Origin: Lysobacterales bacterium 66-474
GTDB lineage: Bacteria; Pseudomonadota; Gammaproteobacteria; Xanthomonadales; Rhodanobacteraceae
Assembly (NCBI GenBank): GCA_001899805.1
Contig: MKWP01000015.1
Coordinates: 434,001 to 498,000, forward strand
Reading direction: 5' to 3'
DNA: 64,000 nt
A program made the position numbers and the translations under genes. The notes under the pieces are model-generated. The model saw only the letters and a program-made list of their open reading frames with translations, did not search any database and was not told the origin of the DNA. Shown piece after piece: positions 258-44,007 of the stretch. The first letter of the stretch is position 1; each line of letters begins with the position of its first letter.

Positions 258-323
258 ATAACCCTCAGCTATGCCGGGTGCCCGTTTTTTCATTGGTGGT
301 TTTCGTTAGCCGATCGTTATGCT
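258..323 (+). promoter_or_regulatory. LysR-type activated promoter, copy A
   Basis: The inverted repeat ATAACCCTCAGCTAT (258-272) has a T-N11-A core. It is followed by 20 bp that start GCC and end TTTTTTCA, then -35 TTGGTG (293-298), a 19-bp spacer and -10 TATGCT (318-323). Transcription would start near 330, giving a leader of about 157 nt before the receptor gene. The same 66-bp layout occurs five more times in the window. The repeat centre near -65 is the usual recognition site of LysR activators. Confidence 0.8.
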
Positions 324-486
324 CGGGAACGAACCGCGAGCGATGTTCAACAGCGGCTTTGACCGTCGCGCCCGCCGTGATGCTGCCGATCGACCGCTCG
401 GCAGTGTCATTGGGCGTGACGGGGGGAAGCAAAGCCGCGCAGCACAAGCTCACTGTGCCTGCATTCCATCCCAGGAGGGACGTAAC

Positions 487-3400
487 ATGAAGAGCAAGTC
501 TTTGCGTGCGCGTCTTTGCGCCAATGTTTTCCAGCGCAAAGCGCTGGCACTGGCAATCGGCGGAACGATTGCCCTCACCTTCGGCGGCGGCGCGTTCGCG
601 CAGGCCGTGAACGGCACCATTCAGGGCACGGTGCCCGTGGCTCCCAACGAGACCATCCAGATCACGGGTGGCGCCGGATTCAACCGCACCATCGCGGTGG
701 GACCATCCGGCAAGTATTCGCTCACCCTGCCGGTCGGCACCTATACCGTATCGTTGTTGCAGGACGGGAAAGTGGTGCAAAGCCAGACCGACGTGGCCCC
801 GGTCGCTGCGGGCGCGGTGACCGTCAATTTCACGTCCGCGACCGCGAACGCACAGACCCTGAGCACCGTGGACGTCAGGGCGAGCGTACCGGTCATCGAT
901 GTGACCACCACCAACCAGGTCACCACGATCACGCAAAAGCAGTTGCAGCAGTTGCCCCTGGGGCGTACCGCCGAAGACATCGCGATGCTGGCGCCGGGCG
1001 TACAGCCAGGATCAGCCGTATTGGTCGGCGGGCCGCTGGGCACACCGGCCGTGACCTTCGGCGGTGCCTCGACGGCGGAAAACCAGTATTACATCGATGG
1101 TTTCCTCACCAGCGCCGTGCTCGACAACCAGGGCGGCATCGGCTTGCCGTACAACTCGATCGAGCAGCAACAGACCTTCATCAGCGGCTATGGCGCCAAG
1201 TACGGTCGCGCCATCGGCGGTGTAATCAACCAGATCGGCAGGAGCGGCTCCAACGAATGGCACTTCGGCGTCCGCGCCCAGTGGTCGCCGGCGAGTTGGA
1301 CCGACGATCCCGAGAACACCTACTACGCCAATCCACTGGTCACGCGGGCGGGTCACCATGCCGGGGACCTGTACTCGTACAACCAGGACAACCACGGCAT
1401 GAGTACGGTCTATGACGCTTATGTCAGCGGCCCGATCGTCAAGGACAAACTGTTCTTCTTCCTGAGCGCCGAGCAGGACGATTCGGACTACACAAGCGTG
1501 GGTTGCAAGTACTGCGGTGGGTATCAGTATGTTGACAAGACCCACAAGCCCAAGATCTACGCGAAAATCAACTGGAACATCAACGACAGCAACTTCCTGA
1601 CCTTTACCGCCCTCCAGAGCTCCCTGAAAACCTGGGACACGGCTTACAACTACGACTACGACACGCACAAGGCGACGAGCTTTTTCAACCTGGGAATGAC
1701 GGGCAAGAACGTCTACCGGATGGGGGTGCTCAACTACACCTCCTACGTCACCGACAACCTGACCCTGCACGCCATGTTTGGCAAGTCGCGCGAACAGTAC
1801 GGGAGTTTCCAGCCTGGCTACCCCGGGTACGATCCCGACATGGTGTTCGTGGGCGGCATCTCCAACGAAAACCCGGCGTACACGCCGAACGGCCCCATAG
1901 GCAATACACAGAACAACCTGACGGTGACGCCGGACAACCACAAGGTCAACCTCACCGACTACCGCCTGGACCTGGATTACAAGTGGCGCAACCATGATTT
2001 CCAGTTCGGCATCGACAACGACATACAGAGGGACATCAACGACGGCATCGCGACTACCGGGCCGGGTTACGGATGGTCGTACGGCAGTGTCCAGGGCGCG
2101 GAGATCAACCAGCCGCTTGTTTGCGCCGATCCCGCGTGCGACCCGGGCATCCCGCCATACGTGGGGCCAGTGAGTTCCAATCCGGCCGGCGCAAGCGGCT
2201 ACTACGCGATGAAGCTCTTCCAGTCCTACTCTCCGTCCACACGTGTCACCGAACGCGCGCAATACGTCCAGGACAATTGGCAGATCACTCCGAACTTCCT
2301 GTTGACGCTGGGCCTGCGCAACGAGCAATTCGTCAACTACGACGCTGCGGGCAAACCCTACATCAGGCTCACCAAGCCCAACTGGTCACCGCGCATCGGC
2401 TTCAGCTGGGACGTGCACGGTGATTCGACCCTGAAGGTCTTCGGCAACGCCGGGCGCTACTACCTGACCCTGCCGGTGGGCGTCGGCACCACGGTAACCG
2501 CGCCGATCGTCAACATCACCGAATACGGCACCTACACCGGCATCGACCAGACCACCGGCGCACCGACGGGATTCCAGCCGCTGCCGCAGAATCCCGTGGG
2601 GGGAGTCTCGTGCTGCAACCAGTACGGCTACCCGCGCAACAACCTGACCGTGGCGTCGCAGAACATCAAGGCGCCCTACTCCGACAACTTCGTGCTGGGC
2701 ATGCAACAGAAGCTGCATTTCCTGACCACGGACTGGGTTTTCGAGGCCACCGGCACGTACGAGAAACTGGGCACGATGATTGGCGGCACCGACGATTCCC
2801 AGTCGATGTGCGCGGAAGGCGTGCGCGAGGGCTACACCTGGATGACTCCGGGCACCTGCAGCCAATGGATCCAGAGCCCCGTGATGGTCAATCCCGGCGT
2901 CGACCAGAAGATTTACGTGGGCGCGCCGGATGGAACGTTGCGCCTGATCAACTGGACCGCGGCGGACCAGACCTTCCAGATGGGTCCGAAGCGCAACTAT
3001 TACGCGCTGGACCTGTCGCTCACCCACGTCTGGGACGGCAAGTGGTTCGGGAAGATCGATTACGTCTACTCGAAGATGTATGGCAACGATGACGGTCCGG
3101 TCGGACCGATGTACGAATCCAGCGGCGTCGTGGCTTACCTCACCGCGGTATGGGCCTACCCCAGGATCATGGACAATTCGAACGGCGTCCTGGACACCGA
3201 CCGCACGCACTCGCTCAAACTCTACGGCGCCTACGCGATCACCCCGGAATGGATCCTGGGTGCCAACGTGTGGATCGCTTCGGGCACGCCGCGGATGTGC
3301 CGCGGCAGATACGGACCGGATCAGACGCGTTTCGAGGTATCGAGCCAGTACCACTGGTGCGGCGGCGTATCCACCGCACCCGGCTCCGGGGTTCCGCCGT

Positions 3401-3639
3401 ACGGAACCAAGCGCACGCCGTGGATCCACAATGTCAACCTCAGCGTGGACTACAAGCCGGTTTGGGCCGAACACAAGCTGGACTTCAAGTTCCAGGTGTT
3501 CAACGTGTTCAACAAGCAGACGCCCACGTTCTACGGCGACTATTTCGTCTCGACATCCAGTCCTGGCACCAGCTACAACATGATCGAAGCCAGGATGCCG
3601 CCACGCTCCGCGCGGTTCTCGATTGCCTACAATTGGTGA
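487..3639 (+). CDS. TonB-dependent receptor, Oar/carboxypeptidase-regulatory-like type
   Basis: Outer-membrane transporter of about 1050 residues. The start at 487 is chosen because GGAGGG lies 8 nt upstream and a signal peptide follows (basic N-terminus, hydrophobic stretch, cleavage near AFAQ). Next come a short beta-sandwich domain (roughly residues 35-110, with the GPSGKYSLTLPVGTYTVSLL pattern of carboxypeptidase-regulatory-like domains), a plug domain (about 120-260) and a 22-strand-type barrel ending in aromatic W. It is a close paralogue of the receptor at 26794-29919, with long identical blocks. Promoter copy A drives it and a TPR-sulfotransferase gene follows. The substrate is not visible in the sequence; the context suggests peptidoglycan fragments. 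Confidence 0.9.
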   Translation: MKSKSLRARLCANVFQRKALALAIGGTIALTFGGGAFAQAVNGTIQGTVPVAPNETIQITGGAGFNRTIAVGPSGKYSLTLPVGTYTVSLLQDGKVVQSQTDVAPVAAGAVTVNFTSATANAQTLSTVDVRASVPVIDVTTTNQVTTITQKQLQQLPLGRTAEDIAMLAPGVQPGSAVLVGGPLGTPAVTFGGASTAENQYYIDGFLTSAVLDNQGGIGLPYNSIEQQQTFISGYGAKYGRAIGGVINQIGRSGSNEWHFGVRAQWSPASWTDDPENTYYANPLVTRAGHHAGDLYSYNQDNHGMSTVYDAYVSGPIVKDKLFFFLSAEQDDSDYTSVGCKYCGGYQYVDKTHKPKIYAKINWNINDSNFLTFTALQSSLKTWDTAYNYDYDTHKATSFFNLGMTGKNVYRMGVLNYTSYVTDNLTLHAMFGKSREQYGSFQPGYPGYDPDMVFVGGISNENPAYTPNGPIGNTQNNLTVTPDNHKVNLTDYRLDLDYKWRNHDFQFGIDNDIQRDINDGIATTGPGYGWSYGSVQGAEINQPLVCADPACDPGIPPYVGPVSSNPAGASGYYAMKLFQSYSPSTRVTERAQYVQDNWQITPNFLLTLGLRNEQFVNYDAAGKPYIRLTKPNWSPRIGFSWDVHGDSTLKVFGNAGRYYLTLPVGVGTTVTAPIVNITEYGTYTGIDQTTGAPTGFQPLPQNPVGGVSCCNQYGYPRNNLTVASQNIKAPYSDNFVLGMQQKLHFLTTDWVFEATGTYEKLGTMIGGTDDSQSMCAEGVREGYTWMTPGTCSQWIQSPVMVNPGVDQKIYVGAPDGTLRLINWTAADQTFQMGPKRNYYALDLSLTHVWDGKWFGKIDYVYSKMYGNDDGPVGPMYESSGVVAYLTAVWAYPRIMDNSNGVLDTDRTHSLKLYGAYAITPEWILGANVWIASGTPRMCRGRYGPDQTRFEVSSQYHWCGGVSTAPGSGVPPYGTKRTPWIHNVNLSVDYKPVWAEHKLDFKFQVFNVFNKQTPTFYGDYFVSTSSPGTSYNMIEARMPPRSARFSIAYNW

Positions 3640-3654
3640 CTCGGTCGAAGAAGC

Positions 3655-3700
3655 GGACGCGCACCGGTTGCCAGCCAAACCGGTGCGCGTCCCAAGCTTT
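3655..3700 (+). terminator. 15-bp perfect stem-loop after receptor gene
   Basis: GGACGCGCACCGGTT (3655-3669) pairs perfectly with 3678-3692 across an 8-base loop, and is followed by a weak tail ending CTTTT. It lies 15 bp after the receptor stop and 38 bp before the sulfotransferase start. It could terminate, attenuate or protect the receptor mRNA 3' end. The short T run makes full termination uncertain. Confidence 0.6.
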
Positions 3701-3729
3701 TGCGCCGAGGACACTGACCTTGCGATGAC

Positions 3730-5343
3730 GTGAAATCCGGAGCAGAAACAGGCTTGACCCAGACCTTGGCGCGAACTCCGCTTTCGCCCGTCGCCACCCG
3801 GCTGCTGGCGCGGGCGCGCAGTGAATGGGAGGCGCGCCAGTTCGAAGCCGCCGAACGGACACTGTCCAGCGTGCTGGCATTGGCGCCGCGGGATCCACGG
3901 GCGGTCCGGATGTTGGGAATGGTCGCACGCAGCCGCGGCGAGCATGCCAAGGCTGTCGATTGCTATCGCGCGGTGCTTGCGGTGTGGCCCGAGGATTTTT
4001 TCCTGCACAGCGAACTAGGCCTCTCGCTGCTTTCGCTCGGCGAGGCCGAAGACGCCACGGAGCACTTCCGGCACGCCTGCCAACTTGAGCCCGACTCGGC
4101 AGCGGCATGGTTCCATCTTGGTGAAGCGCTGTGGCGGCAGGCGCAGGGGGACGAAGCCGTCCTGGCCTTGCAGCGGGCGCTTGCATTTGAACCCGAACAC
4201 ATCGAGGCACGGCTTTCGCTGGCGCGGGCCCACGCCGGTCTGGGCCGGGTCGAGGCCGCGGTGGCGGAATTTCGCGAGGTGGTGCGGCGCGACCCCGTCA
4301 ACGCCGATGGCTGGTACGGGCTGTCTCTGAATGCGGTTCTGGACACCGCCGATGCTGCATGCCTGCAAAAGATTTTCGCGCGCAATGACCTGCCAGTCCG
4401 CGCGCACTACTTGCTCGGCTTCGCCTTGGCGAAAGCCCTGGAAGACCAAGGTGATCACGCGCGCGCATTCGAAATCTACCGGCAGGCGAACGCGTCGCAA
4501 CGCGCGGGCATGCCGGTGAAATGGGACGCCGCCGAAGAACACCGGCTCGTGGATGCGATCCGCAACGCCTTTGCAGACGCCGCCCCACGGTCACAGGATG
4601 TCGCGGTCGGCAAGGAAGCCATCCTGATCACCGGGATGCCGCGCTCCGGCTCGACCCTGGTCGAGCAGATCCTGGCTTCGCATCCGGATGTCGAAGGAGC
4701 CAACGAAATCAGGGACATGTCGCGACTCGTCAATGCAGAGTCGCGACGCCGCGGGTCGGTATTCCCGCTGTGGGTCCCTGACACCACGACCCGGGATTGG
4801 CAGCGGCTCGGCCAAGAGTATCTCGCGCGAACCGCGCGCTGGCGCGCGGCCAGACCACGCTTCACCGACAAGAACCTCATGGGTTGGCATTTCGTCGGCG
4901 CGGCGCTGGCGATGCTGCCGGCGACGCGCGTGATCATCGTCCGGCGCGATCCCGTGGAGACTTGCCTGGCGTGCTACCGCCACTGTTTCACCGAAGAGGC
5001 CGCTTTCGCCTGCGACCTCGACGACCTGGCCGATTACTGCGCCGGATTCCTGCGCCTGACCCGTTTCTGGTTGGAGAAGTACCCGGCGAATGTGTTCGAT
5101 CTGCGGTACGAAGCGTTGTTGGCCGACCCGGAACGCGTCATTCGCCAGCTTCTGGATTTTTGCGGGTTGTCCTTCGACCCCGCTTGCCTTGAGCCCCACA
5201 AGACGCCGCGCGCGGTGCTGACACCCAGCGCCGCGCAGGTGCGCCAGCCCCTGCGCTCCAACACGGCACGCAGTGACCACTATGGCAGCAAGTTGGACCC
5301 CTTGCGTCAGCGCTTGCAAGACGTTGGAATGATACCGGGGTAG
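3730..5343 (+). CDS. TPR-repeat sulfotransferase family protein
   Basis: 537-residue two-part protein from a GTG start. The N-terminal ~240 residues are tandem tetratricopeptide repeats (repeated A-x3-F/Y, L-x2-G-x2-L and P-x-A patterns). The C-terminal half is a PAPS-dependent sulfotransferase domain: the 5'-phosphosulfate loop PRSGSTL is at residues 304-310, and RRDPVETCLACYRHCF is the 3'-phosphate-binding region. No signal peptide is seen, so it should be cytoplasmic. The acceptor cannot be read from sequence. It follows the TonB receptor in the same direction; the second receptor of this kind has a homologous partner at 30021-31631, and a decayed third copy is at 8795-9097. Confidence 0.85.
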   Translation: MKSGAETGLTQTLARTPLSPVATRLLARARSEWEARQFEAAERTLSSVLALAPRDPRAVRMLGMVARSRGEHAKAVDCYRAVLAVWPEDFFLHSELGLSLLSLGEAEDATEHFRHACQLEPDSAAAWFHLGEALWRQAQGDEAVLALQRALAFEPEHIEARLSLARAHAGLGRVEAAVAEFREVVRRDPVNADGWYGLSLNAVLDTADAACLQKIFARNDLPVRAHYLLGFALAKALEDQGDHARAFEIYRQANASQRAGMPVKWDAAEEHRLVDAIRNAFADAAPRSQDVAVGKEAILITGMPRSGSTLVEQILASHPDVEGANEIRDMSRLVNAESRRRGSVFPLWVPDTTTRDWQRLGQEYLARTARWRAARPRFTDKNLMGWHFVGAALAMLPATRVIIVRRDPVETCLACYRHCFTEEAAFACDLDDLADYCAGFLRLTRFWLEKYPANVFDLRYEALLADPERVIRQLLDFCGLSFDPACLEPHKTPRAVLTPSAAQVRQPLRSNTARSDHYGSKLDPLRQRLQDVGMIPG

Positions 5344-5589
5344 TTTCACGGGTTGCAGCGTGATCTCTCGTCTGCAAGGCGCCTCGCATGCAGCAGTTGA
5401 AATTCCGGCGCAAGGTGAAAATCAAAACTTGGCTGGAAATCTGAACGACTTCGACACGGCGCCGGCAAGTGCGCTGCAGGCCCGATCGGCGAATCCACTC
5501 GGCATGGAATTCGCGATGTGGTGACTGCGGATCGCTTGCTGGGTGAACGGGTACCGCGACGCGGCCAACCCGGGCACCGGCCGCATCCC

Positions 5590-5655
5590 ATAACCCCCAG
5601 CTATGCCGCATGCCTGTTTTTTCATTGGTGGCTGCCACGGGGGGACAAGTACCCT
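5590..5655 (+). promoter_or_regulatory. LysR-type activated promoter, copy B
   Basis: Inverted repeat ATAACCCCCAGCTAT (5590-5604), a 20-bp segment starting GCC and ending TTTTTTCA, -35 TTGGTG (5625-5630), 19-bp spacer, -10 TACCCT (5650-5655). The leader to the receptor at 5785 would be about 120 nt. Apart from this element nothing gene-like was seen in the 440-bp gap 5344-5784. Confidence 0.8.
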
Positions 5656-5784
5656 TGCTCGGCGGCGGGTCAACGGAAGCCTTGACCCTGGGGCCACGCG
5701 GCATGCTGGCGAAAGGATGCGGCAGCAGACGATCGCTGCGTCGAGACCACATCACTTGAATCACATGATTGGGGAGAGGGAATC

Positions 5785-8775
5785 ATGAAGCGCAAGTCGC
5801 ATTCGTTGCATTGCAAAAACGTGTTCCGGCGCAAAGCGCTGGTCCTCGCCATCGGCGCGGTCACTTTCAGCCTGGCGAGTACGGGCTGGGCGCAGGCAAC
5901 CAGCGGCGCCAGTTCCGCCACCGCGCAGGATGCGCCGCAGACTGCCCCACAGGCCACTGCGCAAGACACGACGAAAACCAAGGCGAAAGCCACTACCGGC
6001 TCGTCTCGCGTACAGACGCTCGAGAAAATCACCGTAACCGGTTCGCGCATCAAGCGTGCGCAGATCGAAGGTCCGTCGCCAGTGGTGATCATCACCGCCC
6101 AGGACATCAAGGAGGAAGGCTTCACGACCGTAGCCGAAGCCCTGGGCACCCTCACCCAATACACCGGCGCCGTCGTTGCCGGCGAGTGGAATTTCGGCAA
6201 TCAGCAGCCGGATGCCCAGTACCTCAACCTGCGCGGCCTTGGCGTTGGCTATCAGTTGATCCTGCTCAACGGCAAACGCATGGCGGACTACCCCGCGGCA
6301 TCCACGGCGGGAGACATGGGAATCAGCATCGGCAACATCCCGATGGCAGCCATTGATCGCATCGAAGTGCTCAGCAGCAGTGCATCGGCCGTATACGGCT
6401 CCGACGCCGTGGCCGGTGTGGTCAACATCATCACCAAGGAAAACTGGCAAGGCAACCATGTGCGCCTGCGTGAAGGCGGCTCCACCCTGGGGGGAGGCAA
6501 CACCCTCGATCTTCAGTTCAGCGGGGGCAAGGTCTGGGATCGCGGCAGCATCACCTATGGCTTCGAGCAGTTGTTCCGCAAGCCCCTTTACGCCTGGCAG
6601 CGCGGCGACCAGGGCTTTTACAACCCGAGAACGGCCCCACAACAAAACCCGGACCCCAATCACCCGACCTATACGCCCACCCGAGGCCTGGCGCTCTGGA
6701 CCTACGCCACGCCGGGCGGCTACATGCATTACAACTACTGGCTGGACCAGGCTGGCAATCTGGTTCTGGCGTCTCCCACCTCCCCGGACGCCGGCGGCGC
6801 ACTGGAATACAGCTGCGGCCAGGTGGGCCATGCGCCGTACTACCCGTACAAGGCCGATGGCAATACGCCTTCCAATTGCGGCGCGTTGAACTATTACGAC
6901 TGGGTCACGTTGGCCAACAGATACAACAAGACTTCCGCCTTTGTGTCGGGCAAGTATCACATCACCGACACGGTGGATGCCTATGGCCAGTTGCTGGTGA
7001 CCCGCGCGCGCGACGTGATGACCCAGCGCTCCAACCTGTTCATGTTCAACCAGGGTGACGCCTACGACACGACGCTGGGGCAGTTCGAGTTTCAGCGCGT
7101 CCTGGATGCCACGCAGATCGGCGGCTTGTCGCCGCGAACCTATGAGGATACCGCCATCAACGCCAACGTCGGCGTGAGAGGCAGGCTGTTCGATCGCTTC
7201 GACTGGGATGCCAGCCTCACCTTCTCGCAGGACAAGATGCACAGCTGGTGGCGCGGACCCATCACGAACAAGGTGAACGACTATTTCTTCGGCCCGGCGG
7301 TCGGTTACGTTGCGGCCGACAACAACTCGCCCATCTATGACCTTGGACCTTTGCAGTTCCAGCACATGTTCGGCCCGATGTCGCCGGCCGACTACGCGTC
7401 GGTCACCGACATCCTCAACAACCACAATACCTCACAGGCCGCTTCGGGGCAGTTCGTGTTCGGAGGCCGTTTGTTCACGCTGCCTGCCGGCGATGTGGAA
7501 ATGTCCGTCGTGCTGGAAGGCGAGCATTCGAAGTACTTCCTGGGTCCGGATGTTCGCTCGCGCAACTACTACGACGGACCGGACCACTCCTTCAACTACA
7601 ACGCCACGTGGGGAGGCGGCTCGCGCAATCGCTATGCCGCGGGCATGGAGTTCCGCGTCCCCATCGTGTCGACCCTGACCGCGAGTCTTGCCGCGCGCTA
7701 TGACAAGTACGATGACATCTCGCAGATCGGCGGTGACATGACCTGGGCTGCCGGGCTGGAATGGCGGCCGTTTGACAGCCTGCTGTTGCGCGCCAGCCGC
7801 CAGACGAGTTTTCTCGCTCCCAACCTGATGTGGATCTATGGCGGACCAGTATCGGCCTACGGCACGTTCACCAACGAATACCTGTGCCGCAAGGCCGGTC
7901 TCGATCTGACCAACACCAATGACACCCAGCAATGCTACGCCGGTGCGTACGATGATGGTTTGTGGTACATCTCCGGCGGTGAAAACACGCACCTGAAAGC
8001 GGAGACCGCAGTATCCAATGGCGCCGGCTTTGTCTGGGACGTGGCGGAGAAACTCTCGTTCAGCCTCGACTACTGGGACATCGAACTGAAGAACAAGAGT
8101 GTCTACCTTGACACGGGCGATATATTGAACGTCAACACGGCCTGTCTCCTGGGATCCTATGACAACGGCACGCCGATCGATCCCAACTCGGCCCAGTGCA
8201 AGCTGTACCAAAGCTTTGTAACGCGGGACGCAACAGGTCACATCACGGGTCTGAGTGTCCAGGCGATCAATCAATCCGGTGTGAAAACCCATGGTTTCGA
8301 CGCCAGCTTGCGCTACGCCTGGAGCTGGGGTCGATTCGGCGACTTCAAAGCCGACATCGGCTTTACCCGCGTCATGGGTTATCAGGTGCAGGTCGCCCCC
8401 GGGGACGTCTGGCAAGACGCGATGCACTGGACAGGGGATGTGGCATTTCGCATGCGCACCAATTGGACCCTGGGCTGGATCAAGGACGGCTGGAATGTCT
8501 ATCTGTACGGATTCCGCGACAGTTCACGGCCCAACTTTTACGCGACCCGTGTTCCGGCGGATACCGGCACGATTTACCCATTGCGGCCGTTCATTCAGTG
8601 GAATGCGTCGGTATCGAAAGAGATCGCCCCGGGCTGGAAAGTTGGTCTTGACGTCGTCAACGTGTTCAACAGTTTCGGGCCGAAAGACCCGACCTACACT
8701 TCGCCTCCGTACTACAACGCCATCTACGGCATGATGGGGCGCTCGGTCTACGTCAACCTCGACGTCGATTTGTGA
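5785..8775 (+). CDS. TonB-dependent receptor
   Basis: 996-residue outer-membrane receptor. The N-terminus carries the same extended leader as the two Oar-like receptors here (NVFRRKALVLAIG), then a hydrophobic core and cleavage near GWAQA. An Ala/Thr/Gln-rich linker follows. The TonB-box region ITVTGSRIKRAQIEG is near residue 90, then the plug (LRGLGVGYQLILLNGKR, SSASAVYGSDAVAGVVNIIT). It lacks the N-terminal beta-sandwich of the other two and belongs to the ordinary CirA/FepA-like class. GAGAGGG precedes the ATG. It ends in NLDVDL, without the usual terminal aromatic residue. Promoter copy B drives it. Confidence 0.9.
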   Translation: MKRKSHSLHCKNVFRRKALVLAIGAVTFSLASTGWAQATSGASSATAQDAPQTAPQATAQDTTKTKAKATTGSSRVQTLEKITVTGSRIKRAQIEGPSPVVIITAQDIKEEGFTTVAEALGTLTQYTGAVVAGEWNFGNQQPDAQYLNLRGLGVGYQLILLNGKRMADYPAASTAGDMGISIGNIPMAAIDRIEVLSSSASAVYGSDAVAGVVNIITKENWQGNHVRLREGGSTLGGGNTLDLQFSGGKVWDRGSITYGFEQLFRKPLYAWQRGDQGFYNPRTAPQQNPDPNHPTYTPTRGLALWTYATPGGYMHYNYWLDQAGNLVLASPTSPDAGGALEYSCGQVGHAPYYPYKADGNTPSNCGALNYYDWVTLANRYNKTSAFVSGKYHITDTVDAYGQLLVTRARDVMTQRSNLFMFNQGDAYDTTLGQFEFQRVLDATQIGGLSPRTYEDTAINANVGVRGRLFDRFDWDASLTFSQDKMHSWWRGPITNKVNDYFFGPAVGYVAADNNSPIYDLGPLQFQHMFGPMSPADYASVTDILNNHNTSQAASGQFVFGGRLFTLPAGDVEMSVVLEGEHSKYFLGPDVRSRNYYDGPDHSFNYNATWGGGSRNRYAAGMEFRVPIVSTLTASLAARYDKYDDISQIGGDMTWAAGLEWRPFDSLLLRASRQTSFLAPNLMWIYGGPVSAYGTFTNEYLCRKAGLDLTNTNDTQQCYAGAYDDGLWYISGGENTHLKAETAVSNGAGFVWDVAEKLSFSLDYWDIELKNKSVYLDTGDILNVNTACLLGSYDNGTPIDPNSAQCKLYQSFVTRDATGHITGLSVQAINQSGVKTHGFDASLRYAWSWGRFGDFKADIGFTRVMGYQVQVAPGDVWQDAMHWTGDVAFRMRTNWTLGWIKDGWNVYLYGFRDSSRPNFYATRVPADTGTIYPLRPFIQWNASVSKEIAPGWKVGLDVVNVFNSFGPKDPTYTSPPYYNAIYGMMGRSVYVNLDVDL

Positions 8776-8794
8776 CATCGGCAAAGGTGAAGCA

Positions 8795-9097
8795 GTGGCG
8801 TGCTACCGCCACTGCTTCATCGAAGAGGCCGCTTTCGCCTGCGACCTCGACGACTTGGCCGATGACTGCGCCGGGTTCCTGCGCCTGACCCGTTTCTGGC
8901 TGGACGAATATCCGGCACAGGTGTTCGATCTGCAGTACGAAGCGCTGGTCGCCGATCCAGAGGACGCCATCCGCCGCATGCTGGACTTCTGCGGATTGTT
9001 ATTCGATCCTGCCTGCCTCGAACCCCGCGAGGCCGCGCGCGACGAGCTGGATCGCTTGCGCCGGCGTTTGCGCGGTGCCGGCGTGCCGCTCGAATGA
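8795..9097 (+). pseudogene. Truncated TPR-sulfotransferase (C-terminal fragment)
   Basis: The ~100-codon frame beginning ACYRHCF-EEAAFACDLDDLAD matches about residues 415-537 of the sulfotransferase at 3730-5343. Over the first ~110 bases the DNA is nearly identical, so the copies are recent or have recombined. The TPR region and the phosphosulfate loop are absent, and an internal deletion removes the segment corresponding to TPSAAQVRQPLRSNTARSD. A weak AAGG precedes GTG 8795, so translation is possible but catalysis is not. It sits directly behind a TonB receptor, as the intact copies do, so it marks a third, decayed receptor-sulfotransferase module. Confidence 0.85.
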
Positions 9098-9118
9098 AAG
9101 AACCAGGGCCTACTATTG

Positions 9119-9247
9119 CTCGTCATCCGGCGCGTAGCGCCGCCTTTTCTTTTGCGAAGGCCGGGATCCATGTTGCCGTTGTTGGCATCGAAAGTGGACT
9201 TCTTGTCTACAGTCGTGCGAACACGGCCCGGCTTTCGCCGGAATGAC
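9119..9247 (+). repeat. REP-like palindrome pair
   Basis: Two imperfect palindromic units (CGGCGCGTAGCGCCG; CCCGGCTTTCGCCGGAATGACG) lie in the gap before the hexosaminidase. The CGGAATGAC end is shared with most other intergenic repeats in this window. The upstream reading frame of the hexosaminidase runs through this repeat, which argues against using the far upstream start. Confidence 0.6.
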
Positions 9248-9265
9248 GTGAGGAGATTCCACAAA

Positions 9266-11371: not shown

Positions 11372-11394
11372 CGCGCTGCCGCAACATTCAGGTG

Positions 11395-35515: not shown

Positions 35516-35572
35516 GGAAGCATCTCCTCACCCGTTGTGAATGGCGCGTGCCACACGCATTCGTCGATTTCG

Positions 35573-36898
35573 TTATCCCGAAACGGCAAAGCCGTTCGCG
35601 GCATCGTGTTGGTGCGATGGCATGCGCGGCGCGCTGCCGCGGTGCCATCCGTACCTCGAAACATCCAATCCCTCGCTTCTTATGTGCGGCATCGCGCCCG
35701 CCATCAGGTCGGCGAGGTAACGCCCGGAGCCGCAGGCCATCGTCCAGCCCAAGGTGCCGTGGCCGGTGTTGAGGAAAAGGTTCTTGTACTTCGTACTCCC
35801 GATCACCGGCGTGCCGTCCGGTGTCGCGGGTCTCAGTCCCGTCCAGAATTCACCCTGCTTCGGATCACCGCCGCGCGGAAACAAGCCTGCGACGACCTTC
35901 TCGAGCGTCGCGCGACGCCGCGCCGGCAACGACAGGTCGTAGCCGCACACGCCCGCGGTGCCGCCGGCGCGGATGCGCCGGTCGAATCGGGTGACCGCGA
36001 CCTTGTACGTTTCATCGAGCAGCGTGGATACGGGCGCCATCGCCGCATCGGTGATCGGCACCGTCAATGAATAACCCTTCAACGGATACACCGGCAGCCG
36101 GATTCCCAGCGGCGCGAGCAGGCGCGGCGTGTAACTGCCCAGTGCAAGCACGTATTGGTCCGCACGCTCGGCCTTGCCGTCGATGCGCACGCCGGCAATG
36201 CGATCGCCGGATGCCTCGATGGCTTCCACCGTCGCGTTGAAGCGGAATTCGACGCCCGCGTTTCGCGCACGTTCGGCCAGCAACCGGGTGAACAGTTCGC
36301 AATCGCCCGTCTGGTCGTTCGGCAGGCGCAGCGCGCCGATGAACTGGTCGACGACATCCGCCAACGCGGGCTCGACACCCAGGATCCCGGCGCGGTCGAG
36401 CAACTCGTACGACACGCCGTATTGATCCAGCACCGCGATGTCGCTGGCGGCGGCATCCAGTTGCGCTTGCGTCCGGAACAATTGCAGCGTGCCGAGCTTG
36501 CGGGCTTCGTAATCGATGCCGAACTCGTCGGCGAGCTCATTGAGGCATTCGGCGCTGTAGCGGGCCAGCCGCAGCATGCGCGCCTTGTTGACCGCGTAGC
36601 GCGCGGCCGTGCAGTTGCGCAGCATCTGCAGCAACCAGATGTATTGGTGCGGATCGAGGCCCGGCTTGATGACCAGCGGCGCATGCCGCGAGAACAGCCA
36701 TTTCAATGCCTTCAGCGGCACGCCGGGCGCGGCCCACGGCGCCGCGTAACCGGGCGAGATCTGGCCGGCGTTGGCGAAACTGGTTTCCCGCGCCGGACCG
36801 GGTTCGCGATCCACCACCGTCACCTCGAAACCCGCGCGCGAGAGATACCACGCACTGCTGGTGCCGATGACGCCGCTGCCGAGGACGAGTGCACGCAT
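35573..36898 (-). CDS. dadA: D-amino acid dehydrogenase (DadA family)
   Basis: FAD-dependent oxidative deaminase of D-amino acids, mainly D-alanine to pyruvate and ammonia, attached to the inner face of the membrane. About 441 residues from ATG 36898 with AAGGA 8 nt upstream. N-terminal dinucleotide fold [19 protein letters not shown], then [22 protein letters not shown] and [13 protein letters not shown], both typical of DadA, and C-terminal [14 protein letters not shown] and [17 protein letters not shown]. It begins 17 bp after the amidohydrolase. No alanine racemase dadX is adjacent, unlike the classical dadAX operon. Confidence 0.93.
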
Positions 36899-36915
36899 GA
36901 CCGATTCCTTGTCGA

Positions 36916-38739
36916 TCACTCGGCGTGGTCGAACTCGGGCATCGCGTCGAACTGCTGGCCCTTGCGCCACTTGTCCGCACCGGGCCGCGTGTAGACGACC
37001 TTGCCGCCGATGATGGTGTAGAGCACCCGCGTACGCAGGATGTCGGTCGACGGCATGGTCAGGAGGTCACCGGAAAACACGTCGATATCGGCCAGCTTGC
37101 CGGGCGTGAGCGAACCCAATTCATGATCCTCGAACATCGCGTAGGCGTTGTTCCAGGTGTAGGACTTCAGTTCCTGCATCGGCGTCTTGGCCTCGGCCGG
37201 GAAGAACGTCTTCCTGCCGTGGTCGTAGGCACGGGTGACCCCGCAATAGAACACCGGGATGGGGTTGGTGTCCTCGACCGGCGTGTCGGTGCCGTCCAGC
37301 ACGATCGCGCCGCTGTCGATCAGCTTCTTCCAGACATACGCGCCCTCCTCCGCACGCTGCTCGCCGAGGCGCGGCACCACCATGGGCGCATCCGAACAGG
37401 CGTGGATGGACTGCATCGACGCGATCACGCCCATCTGGGCGAAGCGCGCGATGTCGGCGGGATTCAAATGCTGCGCGTGCTCGACGCGGAAGCGCAGCGC
37501 GTGCGCCGCGGGATCCTCCTCGAAAACCTGCTGGTACATGTCCAGCACTTCGCGGTTGGCGCGGTCACCGATCGCGTGGATCGCGACCTGGAAACCGTCG
37601 CGTGCGGCGATGCGCGCGATCTGCGCAAGATCGGCCATCGGCGTGACGTTCTTGCCGGTGATGCCGGGCGCGTCGCTGTAGGGCTTGAGGAACCACGCGC
37701 TGCGCGTGCCCAGCGCGCCATCGGAAACATCCTCGCCCACGCCGCGCACGGTGAAATGGTTGTCGGCGTAGCCGATGGTCTTGTATTTGGCGAGGTTCTT
37801 GTCGAGGCTCGCGACATCCGTGACGCCAACGTAGACGTACAGCCGCAGCGGGAAGGTGCCGTCCGCGACGCCCTTCGCAACCTGCTGCTTCAGCCAGTCG
37901 ATGGTTTCGAAGCTTTCACCCTGGTCCACGAAACTGGTGATGCCCTTGCTGACCTCGTTCTGCACCGCGAGTTGCAGCGCCTTTTCGCGCCGCGCCGCCT
38001 GTTCGGCCGGCGGCAATTCCTTGAGGTATTTCTGGTACGCGGCGTACACCGGATCGGCGGCGGTGTCCTTCAGCATGCCGATCGCGTGGCCTTGCGCGTC
38101 GCGCACGATGGTGCCGCCGACCGGGTCGGGCGTCTTGTCGTTGATGCCTGCGAGTTTCAGCGCCGACGCGTTGGCGTAGAGGCCGTGGTAACTGGCGGTG
38201 GTCAGCAGCACCGGATTGTTCGGCGACGCGGCGTCCAGGCTTGCCGGCAGCGGCAGGCCATCCAGGTTCGGCTGCGGCGCGCGATCCCATTTGCTCTCCA
38301 GCCAGCCGAAGCCCACGATCCATTCGCCGGGTTTGGCCTTGGCGGCTGCGGCTTTCACCATCGCGACCACGCCGTCCCAGTTCTTCGCCTTGCCGACGTT
38401 GATCTGCATCAGCGATTCGCCGGTGTCCAGCAGATGGCCGTGGCCCTCGATGAATCCCGGCGTCACGAACGCGCCGTGCAGGTCCATCACCCTGGTCTGC
38501 TTGCCAATGTAACGCGAAATCGACTCGTCGCTACCGACCGCCAGGATCCTGCCGTCGCGTATCGCGAGCGCCTGCGCTTGCGGCTGCAACGGATCGAGCG
38601 TGGCAATGGTCGCGTCGCGCAGCACCAGGTCGGCGGGTTGCAACGCCGGCGGAAAACCCGGAACCGGCGCGCTGGCCGCGAAGGCGGTGGCGACGACCGC
38701 CAGCGCGACCCCAACCAACAGCACCTGCAACGATTTCAT
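36916..38739 (-). CDS. Exported YtcJ-like amidohydrolase
   Basis: Metal-dependent amidohydrolase of the amidohydrolase_3/YtcJ group, about 607 residues from ATG 38739 (GGAGG upstream). The signal peptide [18 protein letters not shown] places it in the periplasm. First-strand metal motif [12 protein letters not shown], later [10 protein letters not shown] and VEHAQHL, and C-terminal [17 protein letters not shown]. Members hydrolyse N-substituted formamides and N-acyl amino acids, and most are uncharacterised. Lying between a receptor gene and dadA, it may deacylate or cleave an imported D-amino-acid derivative; this is inference. Confidence 0.8.
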
Positions 38740-38786: not shown

Positions 38787-41261
38787 TCACCAGCGATAGG
38801 CAATTTTGCCGTAAATGAAGGAGCCTTCAAACCCGAACGGCGAACTGCTCGAGTAAGGGAACACGCCATTGGTGTCGTCACCCACCGGCACGCGCTTCGG
38901 GTAGGTGTTGAACACGTTGTCCGATCCCAGCGTGAACGTCCAGCGATCCCTGTAGTAGTTCACCGCGAGGTCGAAGATCCATTTGGGCGGATAGGTGACG
39001 TCATCGAGATAGCTGGTCGAGCCGTAGCTGGTGAACCGTCCGTAGCGGGTCGCCGTGCCGGTGAGGCCCCAGTCACCTTGCCGGTAGGTGGAAGTCAGGA
39101 TCACCTTGCTGCGCGGCATGGTGTCGGCGAGCAGGCCCAGGATGGCGGAACGGTTGAGGCGCTGGAAGATGGCGCCCAGGTCGTTCAGCACCTGCGGGTT
39201 CGGACGCACCCCGGAAACCTTGTTCTTGTGGTAGGTGGCGCCCAGCGTCGTCAGCAGCGAGCCACCGTTGTCGAAGGACGTGCGATACGTCGACACGATG
39301 TCGATGCCCTGGCTTTTCACGTTGCCGGCATTGGTGAAATAGGAAAGGCCGCTGTATTGCAGGTTGGTGATGCCGTTGGCCGCGAGGTAGTTGATGACCG
39401 AGGGCAGCGCCAGCGAGATCTGGCTGGACAGCGCGATGCGGTTGCGCAGCATGATCTGGTAGATGTCCACCGTGGTGTCAAAGGACTCATTGGGTCGCCA
39501 CACGAAGCCGGTCGTCACGCTGCGCGAGGTCTCGGGTCGCAACGCTTCGGCGCCCAGCAACTGCGCGATCGGGTTGGTCACGGGCACCAGGCCGCGCAGG
39601 TAGATCCCCGGCGGCAACCCCAGTGAATTGCCCACCCCCTGCGCCGCCGACGTCGTTTCCGAGTAATGCTGCTGCCCGAGGGTCGGCGCGCGGAACCCGC
39701 TGGAGACGCTGCCGCGGATCGCGAATTCGGGCGTGAAGTCGTAACGTGCCGAAACCGCGTACGAAGTCGTGGAACCGAAATCCGAATAATTCTCGTGGCG
39801 CACCGCGAGCGACGTGCTCAGCTTCTCGGTGAGGTTGCCTTCCAGTTGCAGGTATTCGGAGAACGCGTGCCGGGAAACCGAAACGGCGTCCTGCGGACCC
39901 CAGCCGGCAAACCCTTGTGCACCGCCACGCACGCCCGACGTGCCCACGTACCACGAACCGAAATCGCCGGCTTCCACCTTGAAGGACTGGTGCAGCCACT
40001 GGGTGCCGAACGACAGGGTCCAGTTGTCGTTGAGCTCCCGGGAGATGTCGATGTCGAAGGTGTCCTGCTTTGAACCCAGGGTGCCGTCGTGGAAGCCCAG
40101 TGGACTGCTGCCGAAGTCATTGAGCAGCGCGTAGTTCACGGTGTTGAGGGTGCTGTAGTACACCGTGTTGTCGCCATGGTTGGCGCTGACGTCCCAATGC
40201 CAGACGCCGCCGAGGTTCCCGCGCAGCCCCGCGGTCAGCGCACGGTCGATCGAATCGCCGTGCTCCTTGGGCAGGAAGCCCTCGGGATACACCAGCCCGA
40301 TCAGCGGATTGTTGGGGATGGGCGTGTTGGTGCCGTACCGGAAGAAGCCGCGCGGCTCGCCCACGCGCCGTCCGTAGTGGCCGAACGCGTAGAACTGCAC
40401 GCTCGGCGAAAAATCGTACTCGGAGTTGAGCATCAGGTTCTGGTTGCGGAAGAATATCTGTCCGAACTGGAATTGCTGCCCCAGCCAGGGCACCCGCCGG
40501 TCAACGCCCGCGCGGTTGGTCGGATCCTGGTTGTGGATGTCCACGGCCACCCGAACCCAGCCCTTGTCGCCGCCCAACGGCATGCCGACGTCGCCGTCGC
40601 CCTGCCACATCTGGCCGTCGCCGGCGGAATACTTGCCGCTGACCAATTGCACATCGCCGCCGTGCGCGCCCTTCTTCAGGATGATGTTGATGACGCCCGC
40701 GATCGCGTCGGAGCCGTATTGCGCCGAAGCACCGTCGCGCAGCACTTCGATGTGGTCGATCGCGGCGAGCGGGATCGTGTTGAGGTCCACCGCCTGAGAA
40801 CCCTGGCCGACCTGGCCGAGGCTCAGCAGCAGCGCGCCGGAGTGCCAACGCTTGCCATTGACGAGCACCAGGACTTCGTCCGGCGACAAGCCGCGCAGCT
40901 CGAACGGCCGCTGGAAAGCGAACGTGTCCGATGCCGGCGCGAGCGGGAAGTTCAGCGACGGCACCGCGCGCTGCAGCGCTTCGCCGAGGGTCGGGGCACC
41001 AGTTTGCGTCAGCACCGCGGCGGGGATCACGTCGACCGGCGTCAGCGAATCGCCCTCGGTACGGTTGCCCGCACGCGTGCCGGTCACGATCACCGTCGAC
41101 AATGTTGCCGGCCCCTTGGCCTCCTTCGATTGCGTGGCCGGCTTCTGCTGGTCCTGGCTGCCGGTTTGCTGCGCATCCTGTGCGGCAGCCGTACCAGCCA
41201 ACCCCAGCAACACCGCCGCGGCCAGCGCGGTCGGAATGAAATGCGCGAAACGCTTGTTCAT
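38787..41261 (-). CDS. TonB-dependent receptor, first gene of the dadA operon
   Basis: About 824 residues from ATG 41261 with GGGGAG upstream; signal peptide AAAVLLGLAGTAAAQ. A low-complexity Gln/Lys-rich linker leads to TLSTVIVTGTRAGNRTEGDS at the TonB-box position, then the plug (PFELRGLSPDEVLVLVNGKR, DGASAQYGSDAIAGVINIIL) and a barrel ending IAYRW. Shorter than the Oar-like receptors and lacking the N-terminal beta-sandwich and the FxRKAL leader. The 47-bp distance to the amidohydrolase supports one operon. Promoter copy D lies about 250 bp upstream. Confidence 0.92.
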   Translation of the reverse strand: MNKRFAHFIPTALAAAVLLGLAGTAAAQDAQQTGSQDQQKPATQSKEAKGPATLSTVIVTGTRAGNRTEGDSLTPVDVIPAAVLTQTGAPTLGEALQRAVPSLNFPLAPASDTFAFQRPFELRGLSPDEVLVLVNGKRWHSGALLLSLGQVGQGSQAVDLNTIPLAAIDHIEVLRDGASAQYGSDAIAGVINIILKKGAHGGDVQLVSGKYSAGDGQMWQGDGDVGMPLGGDKGWVRVAVDIHNQDPTNRAGVDRRVPWLGQQFQFGQIFFRNQNLMLNSEYDFSPSVQFYAFGHYGRRVGEPRGFFRYGTNTPIPNNPLIGLVYPEGFLPKEHGDSIDRALTAGLRGNLGGVWHWDVSANHGDNTVYYSTLNTVNYALLNDFGSSPLGFHDGTLGSKQDTFDIDISRELNDNWTLSFGTQWLHQSFKVEAGDFGSWYVGTSGVRGGAQGFAGWGPQDAVSVSRHAFSEYLQLEGNLTEKLSTSLAVRHENYSDFGSTTSYAVSARYDFTPEFAIRGSVSSGFRAPTLGQQHYSETTSAAQGVGNSLGLPPGIYLRGLVPVTNPIAQLLGAEALRPETSRSVTTGFVWRPNESFDTTVDIYQIMLRNRIALSSQISLALPSVINYLAANGITNLQYSGLSYFTNAGNVKSQGIDIVSTYRTSFDNGGSLLTTLGATYHKNKVSGVRPNPQVLNDLGAIFQRLNRSAILGLLADTMPRSKVILTSTYRQGDWGLTGTATRYGRFTSYGSTSYLDDVTYPPKWIFDLAVNYYRDRWTFTLGSDNVFNTYPKRVPVGDDTNGVFPYSSSSPFGFEGSFIYGKIAYRW

Positions 41262-41509: not shown

Positions 41510-41575
41510 AGCATAGTCACGGGCGCGGCCGGGCTGCCAATGAAAAGGCGGGCACCAGGCATAACTGGAAGTTGT
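41510..41575 (-). promoter_or_regulatory. LysR-type activated promoter, copy D
   Basis: On the minus strand: inverted repeat ACAAC-TTCCA-GTTAT (41561-41575), a 20-bp segment starting GCC and ending CTTTTCA, -35 TTGGCA (41535-41540), 19-bp spacer, -10 TATGCT (41510-41515). Start near 41503 gives a leader of about 242 nt; 41262-41503 shows no other gene. The box is 35 bp from the stop of the LysR gene, which points in the same direction. Confidence 0.8.
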
Positions 41576-41610: not shown

Positions 41611-42513
41611 TCAGGCGCCTGCCAGCATCCGCTGCGCGAGTTGCTTCACCAGGTCGAGGAAACGCTTCTGCACCGGATTCAACGGACTGTCGGGTCGGTA
41701 CATCGCGTACAGCACGACATCGAGGTGCGGTTTCAACGGACGCATCTGCACGCTGTTCGCGCTGCCGCAGCGCGCAGTGAACGGATCGACCATGGCCAGG
41801 CCCTCGCCCTTCGCGACCAGCGAATGGGCCAACTGGTAGGTTTGCACCGACACCGTGATCTGCGGCGTGGGGGAAACCTGCGAAAGATGGGTTTGCAGCA
41901 TGCTCCCCAACGCGTCGCGCACGGCGATGCCGATCATGGGCTGGCTGGCCAGCGCATTGATCGGCAGCGGTTGCGCCAGCTCCGCTTCCGGCCACCAACC
42001 GGGCGGCGCGATCACCATGACCTGCCCACGGCAGAGCACCTTCTGGCGCAAGGTCTGGTGCCCGGTGTCCTGCAGGGTGAGGCCGATGTCCGTTTCGCGC
42101 AGGGTCAGCGACTCGCACATCACCGCCGAGTGCTGGGTGGACAACTCGACGGTCACGTCCGTGAACGCCTTGCGCAACAGCACGCTCGCCGCGGGCAACA
42201 GCACCTGGGCCAGCGTCGGGGTGCAGGTCACCCGCAACGGACAGCTTCCCGGCTGGCCCATGTTGGTGGTGAGGCGCTGCAGCTCGTGCACGTCCTGGAT
42301 GATTTTCTCGATGCGGTCGCGCAGCTGCAGCGCCTGCTGGGTCGGCTGCAGGCGCCCGCGGACGCGGCTGAACAAGGCGAAGCCGAGCTTGTCCTCGGCG
42401 TGTTGCAATGCCTTGCTGGCCGCAGGCTGCGAGATGTTGAGCAACTTCGCCGCCCCGGTCAGGCTGCCCGTGGTGAGTACGGCATGGAAGAGTTCGATGT
42501 AGCGCAAACGCAT
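41611..42513 (-). CDS. LysR-family transcriptional regulator
   Basis: 300-residue regulator. N-terminal winged helix-turn-helix: LRYIELFHAVLTTGSLTGAA, then LNISQPAASKALQHAEDKLG, the classical LysR recognition helix. The remainder is a type-2 periplasmic-binding fold for effector sensing. Start at ATG 42513 (internal Met of a longer frame). It lies immediately upstream of, and co-oriented with, the receptor-dadA operon and back-to-back with the P1 peptidase gene. Being the only LysR gene among six LysR-type promoters, it is the best candidate activator; the inducer would be a cell-wall amino acid or fragment. Binding is not shown by sequence alone. Confidence 0.9.
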   Translation of the reverse strand: MRLRYIELFHAVLTTGSLTGAAKLLNISQPAASKALQHAEDKLGFALFSRVRGRLQPTQQALQLRDRIEKIIQDVHELQRLTTNMGQPGSCPLRVTCTPTLAQVLLPAASVLLRKAFTDVTVELSTQHSAVMCESLTLRETDIGLTLQDTGHQTLRQKVLCRGQVMVIAPPGWWPEAELAQPLPINALASQPMIGIAVRDALGSMLQTHLSQVSPTPQITVSVQTYQLAHSLVAKGEGLAMVDPFTARCGSANSVQMRPLKPHLDVVLYAMYRPDSPLNPVQKRFLDLVKQLAQRMLAGA

Positions 42514-42666: not shown

Positions 42667-43848
42667 ATGCCCGCACGCCTCCTCACCATCGCCGTCCTCC
42701 TGCTGGCCTGCCTGCCGGCCTGCGCGCAGCAGCGCAGGAACCTGCGCGATTACGGCGTCGCGATCGGCGTGCTGCAACCCGGAAAGTGGAACGCGATTAC
42801 CGATGTGCCGGGCGTGCTGGTCGGCCAGAAGACCCTGGTCGAGGGCGAAGACGTGCGCACCGGGGTCACGGCCATCCTTCCCTACGCGGGAAACATCTTC
42901 CGGGACAAGGTGCCTGCCGCGGTGTACGTCGGCAACGGCTTCGGCAAATTGACGGGCACCACGCAAATCGCCGAACTCGGCAACATCGAAACACCGATCG
43001 TGCTGACCAACACGCTCAGCGTGCCCACGGCCGCGGATGCGTTGATCGACTACACGTTTTCATTCCCCGCCAATGCCGATGTCATGTCGGTGAATCCGGT
43101 GGTGGGCGAAACCAACGACGGCTGGTTGAACGACATCCGCGGCCGCCACGTGACGAAACAAGATGTGCTGGATGCCATCCGATCGGCGCAAGGCGGCCCG
43201 GTGGCACAAGGCAATGTCGGCGCGGGCACCGGCACCGTGGCGTTCGGCTTCAAGGGCGGCATCGGCACCTCGTCGCGCAAGCTGCCGGCGTCGCTGGGCG
43301 GTTACACCGTGGGCGTGCTGGTGCAGACCAATTTCGGTGGCGTGCTGGACATCGACGGTGTGCCGGTCGGCAAACTGCTGCACAAGTACTACCTGAGCGA
43401 CAAGTTGAACGACTCACCCGACGGTTCATGCATGATCGTGGTGGCGACCGATGCCCCGTTGGGTTCGCGCAACCTTGGGCGGCTCGCCAAGCGGGCCATG
43501 CTTGGCCTCGGCAAGACGGGCGGCATCGAATCCAACGGCAGCGGCGATTACGCGATCGCGTTTTCCACCGACCAGGCCTTGCGGGTGCCTCACGAATCGA
43601 AGAGCCCGCTGCAGCCCATGACCGTCGTGCGCAACGACGACATGTCGCCGCTGTTCATGGCCGCGATCGAAGCCACCGAGGAGGCCATCCTCAATTCGCT
43701 GTTCCACGCCGAAACCACGGCCGGCCGCGACCATCATCGGATCGACGCCCTGCCGATCGACGAAGTCCTGGGGATCATGCGGCAGCGTGGCTACGGCGTG
43801 GCCAATCCCGCCAAGGCCGTTCCGGCCCACGCTATCCGCCACGACTGA
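42667..43848 (+). CDS. P1-family aminopeptidase (DmpA-like), exported
   Basis: Self-cleaving N-terminal-nucleophile peptidase of about 393 residues; family members remove N-terminal L- or D-residues, including beta-peptides. Signal peptide LLTIAVLLLACLPACAQ from ATG 42667; the much longer upstream frame overlaps the LysR gene and is not used. The nucleophile Ser254 is in DGSCMIVVATDAPLG, where DmpA cleaves between Gly and Ser. GVLVGQKTLVEGEDVRTGVTA and VVGETNDGWLND are family blocks. It is divergent from lysR; a TACACT at 42636-42641 may be its -10. It would trim stem peptides. Confidence 0.88.
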   Translation: MPARLLTIAVLLLACLPACAQQRRNLRDYGVAIGVLQPGKWNAITDVPGVLVGQKTLVEGEDVRTGVTAILPYAGNIFRDKVPAAVYVGNGFGKLTGTTQIAELGNIETPIVLTNTLSVPTAADALIDYTFSFPANADVMSVNPVVGETNDGWLNDIRGRHVTKQDVLDAIRSAQGGPVAQGNVGAGTGTVAFGFKGGIGTSSRKLPASLGGYTVGVLVQTNFGGVLDIDGVPVGKLLHKYYLSDKLNDSPDGSCMIVVATDAPLGSRNLGRLAKRAMLGLGKTGGIESNGSGDYAIAFSTDQALRVPHESKSPLQPMTVVRNDDMSPLFMAAIEATEEAILNSLFHAETTAGRDHHRIDALPIDEVLGIMRQRGYGVANPAKAVPAHAIRHD

Positions 43849-43941
43849 GGCCCCGGTCGTCCGCCGCCTGGGGCGACCGCCATCGCCAAGCCAGCCCCGC
43901 CCGGGCTGGCTTTTGGCCGCCAGCTGGTGGCAGCGTCGTTC

Positions 43942-44007
43942 ACAACTCCCGGTTATGCCTTGTACCCGTCTTTTCATTGGCGGCCGGCGCACGCCGACGG
44001 CTACCCT
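43942..44007 (+). promoter_or_regulatory. LysR-type activated promoter, copy E
   Basis: Inverted repeat ACAACTCCCGGTTAT (43942-43956), a 20-bp segment starting GCC and ending CTTTTCA, -35 TTGGCG (43977-43982), 19-bp spacer, -10 TACCCT (44002-44007). Start near 44014 leaves a leader of about 41 nt before the DUF1611 gene, the shortest of the six. Confidence 0.8.

Follow-up and report, generated by a model that had tools for sequence, protein, structure and literature searches.

The LysR protein of E. coli has a single known target, which lies beside lysR itself. For D-glutamate, Yu et al. 2023 (ISME J) are said to have described a pathway consisting of DgcN and DgcA in Pseudoalteromonas, with DgcR as its positive regulator. 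At lysA of E. coli, LysR repeats of the form ATATC-n5-GATAT have been predicted at positions -64 and -43, according to PMC5002191. Here we describe a stretch of 64,000 nucleotides from Lysobacterales bacterium 66-474 (C15:434001-498000, in the following the window), in which copies of a 66-bp DNA element stand before genes for the uptake and breakdown of peptidoglycan. It is likely, with a probability of roughly 0.8, that this element serves as a promoter module and that its activator is the LysR-type protein encoded at 41611-42513, which would switch on genes for scavenging peptidoglycan. A single regulator thus probably turns on the whole scavenging programme. The sharply defined element and its probable regulator are found in Rhodanobacteraceae and some relatives.

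The 66-bp element

An earlier note on this DNA had listed six copies of the element in the window. All six were verified with their coordinates and strands, and they share the features claimed for them: an inverted repeat, a segment GCC...TTTTCA, a hexamer TTGGYG or TTGGCA, a 19-bp spacer and a second hexamer TA-Y-S-M-T. The number six, however, applies to the window only, as the genome contains eight copies, two of them further to the left. The sites are:

258 to 323, plus strand: element upstream of TonB receptor 487-3639 and TPR/sulfotransferase 3754-5343
5590 to 5655, plus strand: element upstream of TonB receptor 5785-8775, a 100-aa sulfotransferase-like fragment and GH20 9266-11371
16697 to 16762, minus strand: element upstream of the symporter-murA-kinase-murQ operon, with divergent aminotransferase-glcDEF-like genes on its other side
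26538 to 26603, plus strand: element upstream of TonB receptor 26794-29919, TPR/sulfotransferase, AmpD-like amidase and serine hydrolase
41510 to 41575, minus strand: element upstream of TonB receptor 38787-41261, amidohydrolase, DadA and APC permease
43942 to 44007, plus strand: element upstream of dgcN-dgcA-GGT-lysA-serine hydrolase-VanX-like-serine hydrolase
C15:426778, 7.2 kb left of the window: element upstream of an amidohydrolase, dapF and a D-amino-acid transaminase-like gene
C15:430646, 3.4 kb left of the window: element upstream of a fifth TonB receptor
46108 to 46140, plus strand: decayed copy between dgcA and GGT (13 bits, E 0.011)

The genome (3.73 Mb, 16 contigs) was scanned at E up to 10 with a sequence profile built from the six window copies. 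Ten matches were obtained, eight at E 2.1e-17 to 7.5e-7 and the remaining two at E 0.039 and 1.04. The two sites left of the window, which were not in the training set of the profile, are among the eight. These eight sites together cover 51 kb, all of them in the cluster with the regulator gene, and no further strong match exists in the rest of the genome. The core TTTTCATTGGYRG occurs nine times in the genome and not at all in the reversed control; eight of these occurrences are the eight sites, and the ninth, on C14, lacks the palindrome. All own copies are intergenic and oriented toward coherent genes. The decayed copy at 46108 has an intact counterpart at the same place in three relatives of the same genus (L058, L060 and L170), which indicates the loss of a site.

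The alignment of 62 sites, consisting of the eight own ones and 54 in named relatives, gave a consensus that starts with CC-AYAAC-C-N4-R-GYTAT-GCC and has a T at position 22; then come GTY-TTTTCATTGG-YGG, a largely unconstrained stretch and an end resembling TATGCTCG. The repeat occupies positions 1-15 and the conserved block positions 30-39, and the element is conserved by blocks across many genera. The spacing, previously described as invariant, is exact in the six window copies but not in all sites: the TA...T hexamer stands at the same distance in 56 of the 62, 1 bp nearer in five and was not recognised in one. Both additional own sites deviate in this respect (C15:430646 with the hexamer 1 bp nearer, C15:426778 with none recognised). 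Similarly, the 66 bp do represent a conserved unit, but conservation extends slightly past both ends, to a CC before and a CG after it.

Presuming that transcription starts 7 bp past the -10, the inverted repeat is located near -65 and a second putative contact region near -35, as is the layout of LysR-type promoters. A repeat in this position, a conserved block before and over a poor -35 and a 19-bp spacer together resemble an activator-dependent promoter of the LysR type. The repeat had also been read as a T-N11-A box typical of LysR-type regulators. Its 15-bp symmetry and its position fit the LysR-type layout, whereas T-N11-A is present within AYAAC-N5-GYTAT only when position 2 is a T.

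Positions 2 and 12 of the repeat are anti-correlated among the 62 sites (C/T 39, T/C 14, T/T 7, A/T 1, G/T 1, C/C 0), and most sites hold exactly one departure from a perfect palindrome; this may tune the affinity. A scan of window positions 1-20000 for the sigma-70 consensus found no promoter, where 3.5 were expected from shuffled sequences, and covered spacers of 16-18 bp only, which makes the elements with their 19 bp undetectable by it. A promoter of the extracytoplasmic function (ECF) type was rejected, the -10 reading TATGCT-like as judged by eye against the consensus of such promoters.

The LysR-type regulator and its co-occurrence with the element

The family scan of the cluster comprised 42 called genes, from a transglutaminase-like gene left of the window to an HtrA-like gene at 54176; throughout, "-like" denotes a match below the curated cut-off. 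The only transcription factor among these genes is:

41611 to 42513, minus strand: LysR-type regulator

Both PF00126 (LysR helix-turn-helix) and PF03466 (substrate-binding domain) match the protein above cut-off. Its predicted structure has a mean predicted local distance difference test score (pLDDT) of 85.1, and the best 50 Foldseek matches are LysR-type regulators. The stretch S28-K34, which we take to be the recognition helix, is invariant in all 25 aligned regulators. The best curated family is the E. coli-type LysR (PRK11013, NF008239); since the score of 146.2 bits is below the cut-off of 288, membership in this family is not claimed. The identity to E. coli LysR is 30% over 284 residues.

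Element and regulator are found together almost without exception. Among 197 genomes of the family, 42 contain the element and 40 the regulator, and all 40 genomes with the regulator also possess the element. For the 16 genomes of the genus the numbers are 11 and 10. The element is present in seven of the 26 sampled genera of the family and in three genera of a second family of the order. In the named loci around the regulator (Dyella, Rhodanobacter, Frateuria, Rudaea, Fulvimonas, Luteimonas and metagenome-assembled genomes), 27 of 28 carry the element, and the single locus without it (L085) encodes only a fragment of the regulator. Eight genomes with a dgcN homologue and no regulator have no element. 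Around distant LysR-type proteins, 35 of 52 loci were scored, and the element model reached at most 9.5 bits there (E 0.66). A second profile, R2, was run across the order and matched 28 of 398 genomes, six of them from the second family. In these six genomes there are eight elements in seven loci, leading groups that start with dgcN (4), GGT (2) or a receptor (2). A regulator with 53-70% identity is encoded in three of the seven loci, and one with 31% identity in a fourth.

The interpretation of the earlier note as a cell-wall regulon is therefore supported by coherent targets, by conservation and by the near-perfect co-occurrence with one LysR-type gene of the cluster, with the specification that "cell wall" means scavenging and breakdown. 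The LysR-type activator it had predicted fits both this co-occurrence and the layout of the promoter. New are the regulator gene, the two further sites and the D-glutamate core in the relatives, which is described below.

Targets in related bacteria

In the relatives we counted 86 placements of the element, of which 85 are distinct (L160:2621 and L074:11312 are the same place, as are L186 and L077). A downstream gene was called for 81: a receptor in 34 cases, one of them (L169:6191) a fragment of 75 residues, dgcN in 24, GGT in 12 and other genes in 11. These counts and groupings rest on gene calls from our own codon model; four or five of the five placements lacking a called gene are close to the end of a contig or locus. 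In one check of the alignment set, no called gene completely enclosed any of the 54 elements of the relatives.

Among the 27 element-bearing named loci, 17 (18 with the truncated L084) have the element immediately flanked by lysR and dgcN, which diverge from it. The window differs from this arrangement, as its lysR sits upstream of a receptor-led element. Including genes further downstream, dgcN is part of 30 of the 86 element-led groups, lysA of 10 and a GltS homologue of 12; in many loci a gene of some 400 residues comes next, the sodium/glutamate symporter GltS as judged from three scanned copies. The oldest shared function of the regulon therefore looks like D-glutamate salvage by dgcN-dgcA, often with gltS, GGT and a TonB receptor. 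The branches for N-acetylmuramic acid (MurNAc), NamZ and diaminopimelate (DAP), by the same comparison, look like additions in the genus of the window.

Elements are also found far from the regulator. Unlinked copies precede receptors (G024:C12, G290:C2, G009:C8) and an amidohydrolase (G282:C22), and in G242:C2 a copy 215 kb from lysR stands between a divergent receptor and GGT. Since such remote elements precede the same kinds of genes, they speak for a regulon and not for a repeat.

Outside this group, other regulators may serve the dgcN-dgcA pathway. In three other Gammaproteobacteria with dgcN (four loci, from a sample of 143 genomes that included our own), no LysR-type neighbour was seen by eye within short flanks. 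In L142 (G056:C3), from another gammaproteobacterium, an Lrp/AsnC-like open frame adjoins the dgcN-dgcA pair, again by eye.

The gene cluster

The cluster codes for peptidoglycan uptake and breakdown. Its genes, in addition to those already named with the elements, are:

9266 to 11371, plus strand: GH20 beta-hexosaminidase family (family scan)
11530 to 16603, minus strand: murQ 11530-12462, BadF/NagK-like kinase 12459-13463, second murA 13485-14825, sodium/solute symporter 15050-16603
21999 to 26166, minus strand: NamZ exo-muramidase family 21999-23246, PBP4B-like serine hydrolase 23236-24903, GH18 25075-26166
31642 to 33754, plus strand: AmpD-like amidase 31642-32430, beta-lactamase-family serine hydrolase 32528-33754
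33836 to 38739, minus strand: APC permease 33836-35515, DadA 35573-36919, amidohydrolase 36916-38739
42667 to 43848, plus strand: S58 peptidase family
44055 to 46069, plus strand: dgcN 44055-45098 and dgcA 45083-46069, both above the curated cut-off (514.4 against 480 and 439.6 against 400)
46177 to 51009, plus strand: GGT 46177-48009, LysA 48251-49459, serine hydrolase 49456-51009
51140 to 53161, plus strand: VanX-like dipeptidase 51140-51874, serine hydrolase 52100-53161

As claimed before, each of the four TonB receptors of the window is preceded by a copy of the element, and the same holds for the fifth receptor just left of it. The copy before the symporter-murA-kinase-murQ operon was likewise seen, and the one at 26538 separates its receptor group from the divergent GH18/PBP4B-like/NamZ genes. 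Judged by their families, the enzymes of the cluster, with one PBP4B-like and three other serine hydrolases, could degrade peptidoglycan to amino sugars, D-glutamate, DAP and D-alanine. The transaminase is close to the D-amino-acid transaminase family, yet under its cut-off. The amidohydrolase at L003:11870-13597, before which site C15:426778 stands, may be a D-aminoacylase; this is our own reading, made without a family assignment.

The aminotransferase and the glcDEF-like genes (16843-21901, plus strand) lie on the other side of one element from the murQ operon and run away from it, and the glcDEF-like products could consume the D-lactate released by MurQ. A second full-length murA (13485-14825, minus strand; the other copy is at C15:955644-956891) is placed between the symporter and the kinase, so that a biosynthetic enzyme is found inside a catabolic operon. 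Within the same genus, the symporter-MurA pair recurs in L158 and the symporter-MurA-kinase order in L164. The units of TonB receptor and TPR/sulfotransferase are duplicated (487-5343, 5785-9097 and 26794-31631; 70-83% identity over long stretches, with an offset of about 26.3 kb), 8795-9097 being a 100-aa remnant of a sulfotransferase end. The same pairing is found again in many relatives.

Proposed mechanism and alternative explanations

In the mechanism that we propose, the 15-bp inverted repeat AYAAC-N5-GYTAT, which would be centred near -65, is the binding site of the regulator. Once bound to its effector, the protein would also touch the TTTTCATTGG block, which covers the -35 and the bases immediately before it. 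In this way it would aid RNA polymerase at a promoter with a poor -35 and a long spacer. Eight gene groups would be activated, combining import (five TonB receptors, symporter and permease) with the digestion of peptidoglycan fragments, and the salvage of D-glutamate would have been widened in the genus of the window to most of the cell wall. Binding and activation, as well as operon limits, transcript starts and the inducer, are predictions from the sequence.

Several observations weigh against this proposal. Two genomes, G006 and G312, contain the element and gave no regulator match, both assemblies being in many pieces (220 and 520 contigs). Common descent inflates the co-occurrence of element and regulator, and in the eight control genomes the dgcN homologues are under the curated cut-off and hence not the same orthologue. 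G028, from another family, encodes a regulator with 38% identity and has no element at E 0.1. Profile R2 was built with the locus of G592 (Luteimonas, L077), so that G592 and probably its near relative G569 do not count as independent among the 28 genomes. In the other three loci of the second family, no regulator was found within the stretches analysed, and G492 and G617, two of the six genomes, showed none at all there. Moreover, the element of L073:1369 overlaps a called start by 53 bases, that of L170:3225 overlaps the end region of a called gene, and that of L189 lies inside a called frame. We take these overlaps as wrong start calls, which is unproven. Finally, the regulator is closest to the DAP-responsive LysR family of E. 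coli, which hints at a different signal from the one favoured here.

In our opinion the signal is most likely D-glutamate, N-acetyl-D-glutamate or a gamma-D-glutamyl peptide, and the constant company of dgcN favours D-glutamate or a derivative. The own genome encodes MurL (753.7 against a cut-off of 700) beside a MurD-family gene, and MurI gave no match at E 0.001. Bacteria of this group would accordingly make their own walls through MurL. Since the MurL route bypasses free D-glutamate, cytoplasmic D-glutamate would come almost only from degraded peptidoglycan, and with MurL present and MurI undetected, free D-glutamate could serve as a clean marker for the degradation of wall material. We therefore tentatively suggest, at somewhat less than even odds, that the regulator reads free D-glutamate or N-acetyl-D-glutamate as an alarm for broken walls, and that a switch for salvage became the master switch for feeding on the walls of other bacteria. 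The cleanness of such a signal is called into question by the D-amino-acid transaminases, which a review names as a source of D-glutamate; a transaminase-like gene of this type sits in the regulon itself.

The strongest competing explanation retains the regulator and the regulon and assumes DAP as the signal, the regulator being an expanded relative of the lysA activator. It would agree with the closest curated family and the 30% identity to E. coli LysR, with the presence of lysA and dapF inside the regulon of the window, and with the similar layout of the predicted ATATC-n5-GATAT site at -64 (PMC5002191). However, the family score stays far below its cut-off (146 against 288), the element model has no match above chance in the lysA-lysR region of E. 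coli, and lysA belongs to 10 element-led groups of the relatives where dgcN belongs to 30. We regard DAP as the less likely signal, though as a serious rival.

It is also conceivable that the sites are real and bound by another DNA-binding protein encoded elsewhere, the LysR-type gene being a mere passenger of the cluster. The two element-bearing genomes lacking a regulator match would be explained in this way, and the link between regulator and repeat is a predicted one. Against this, none of the 40 genomes with the regulator lacks the element, dispersed elements accompany the regulator even where both are unlinked, and the 15-bp symmetry and the place near -65 fit the LysR-type layout given in PMC5002191. 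Another binding protein is accordingly improbable.

There remains the question whether the copies have no regulatory meaning and represent a dispersed repeat or leftovers of segmental duplications. The copies at 258 and 26538 could be seen in this light, as they head one duplicated receptor-TPR/sulfotransferase unit and for this reason are not independent; for them, the earlier statement that the surroundings are not conserved has to be qualified. For the others it stands. The pairwise identity of the eight own sites is 0.50-0.82 inside the 66 bp, 0.17-0.45 upstream and 0.17-0.44 downstream, so that the flanks are near background apart from this one pair. Since the element furthermore precedes non-homologous genes, is conserved by blocks over many genera and has no strong copy elsewhere in the genome, a dispersed repeat was rejected as very improbable. 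Equally remote is a transcribed RNA leader or riboswitch. Such a reading might be suggested by the uniform length and the blocks of conservation ahead of genes for transport and catabolism, but a promoter-like hexamer closes the element, sequence conservation wanes about 2 bp beyond it, and Rfam gave no match at gathering scores in the window (1-64000).

The activation of the element by the LysR-type regulator thus stays the preferred explanation. With it, likely substrates can be given for receptors, transporters and hydrolases whose names otherwise reflect nothing more than their fold. A further prediction is that a D-amino acid specific to the wall acts as a nutrient signal, tied to an unusual route of wall synthesis that avoids free D-glutamate.

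Comparison with known systems

No regulon of such a composition was found in the literature searched, whose coverage left out most subscription journals. The system of LysR and lysA in E. coli resembles the one described here in its LysR-type regulator, in a 15-bp ANANC-like N5 repeat predicted near -64 (PMC5002191) and in lysA, which is among the likely targets here; the regulators share 30% identity. It differs in the number of sites, of which there are eight here, and in the constant neighbour, which in the relatives is dgcN and not lysA. Moreover, the element is absent from the E. coli region, and our regulator misses the cut-off of the family.

AmpR, a LysR-type regulator as well, responds to a peptidoglycan-derived signal, as stated in PMC13046382. 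However, AmpR acts on a beta-lactamase gene, whereas uptake and catabolism are the targets here; the likeness is drawn from the description of AmpR. The Caulobacter clusters for N-acetylglucosamine (GlcNAc) combine, like ours, a TonB receptor with genes for amino-sugar catabolism under local control, but, according to PMC13046382, they are devoted to GlcNAc only and probably controlled by GntR-type regulators.

The pathway of DgcN and DgcA with its regulator DgcR is similar in that dgcN and dgcA of the window are clearly assigned, that dgcN is the commonest non-receptor target of the element, and that D-glutamate is converted to L-glutamate. DgcR is set beside our regulator by description only. 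In contrast to that pathway, TonB receptors and peptidoglycan enzymes are added here to the D-glutamate genes.

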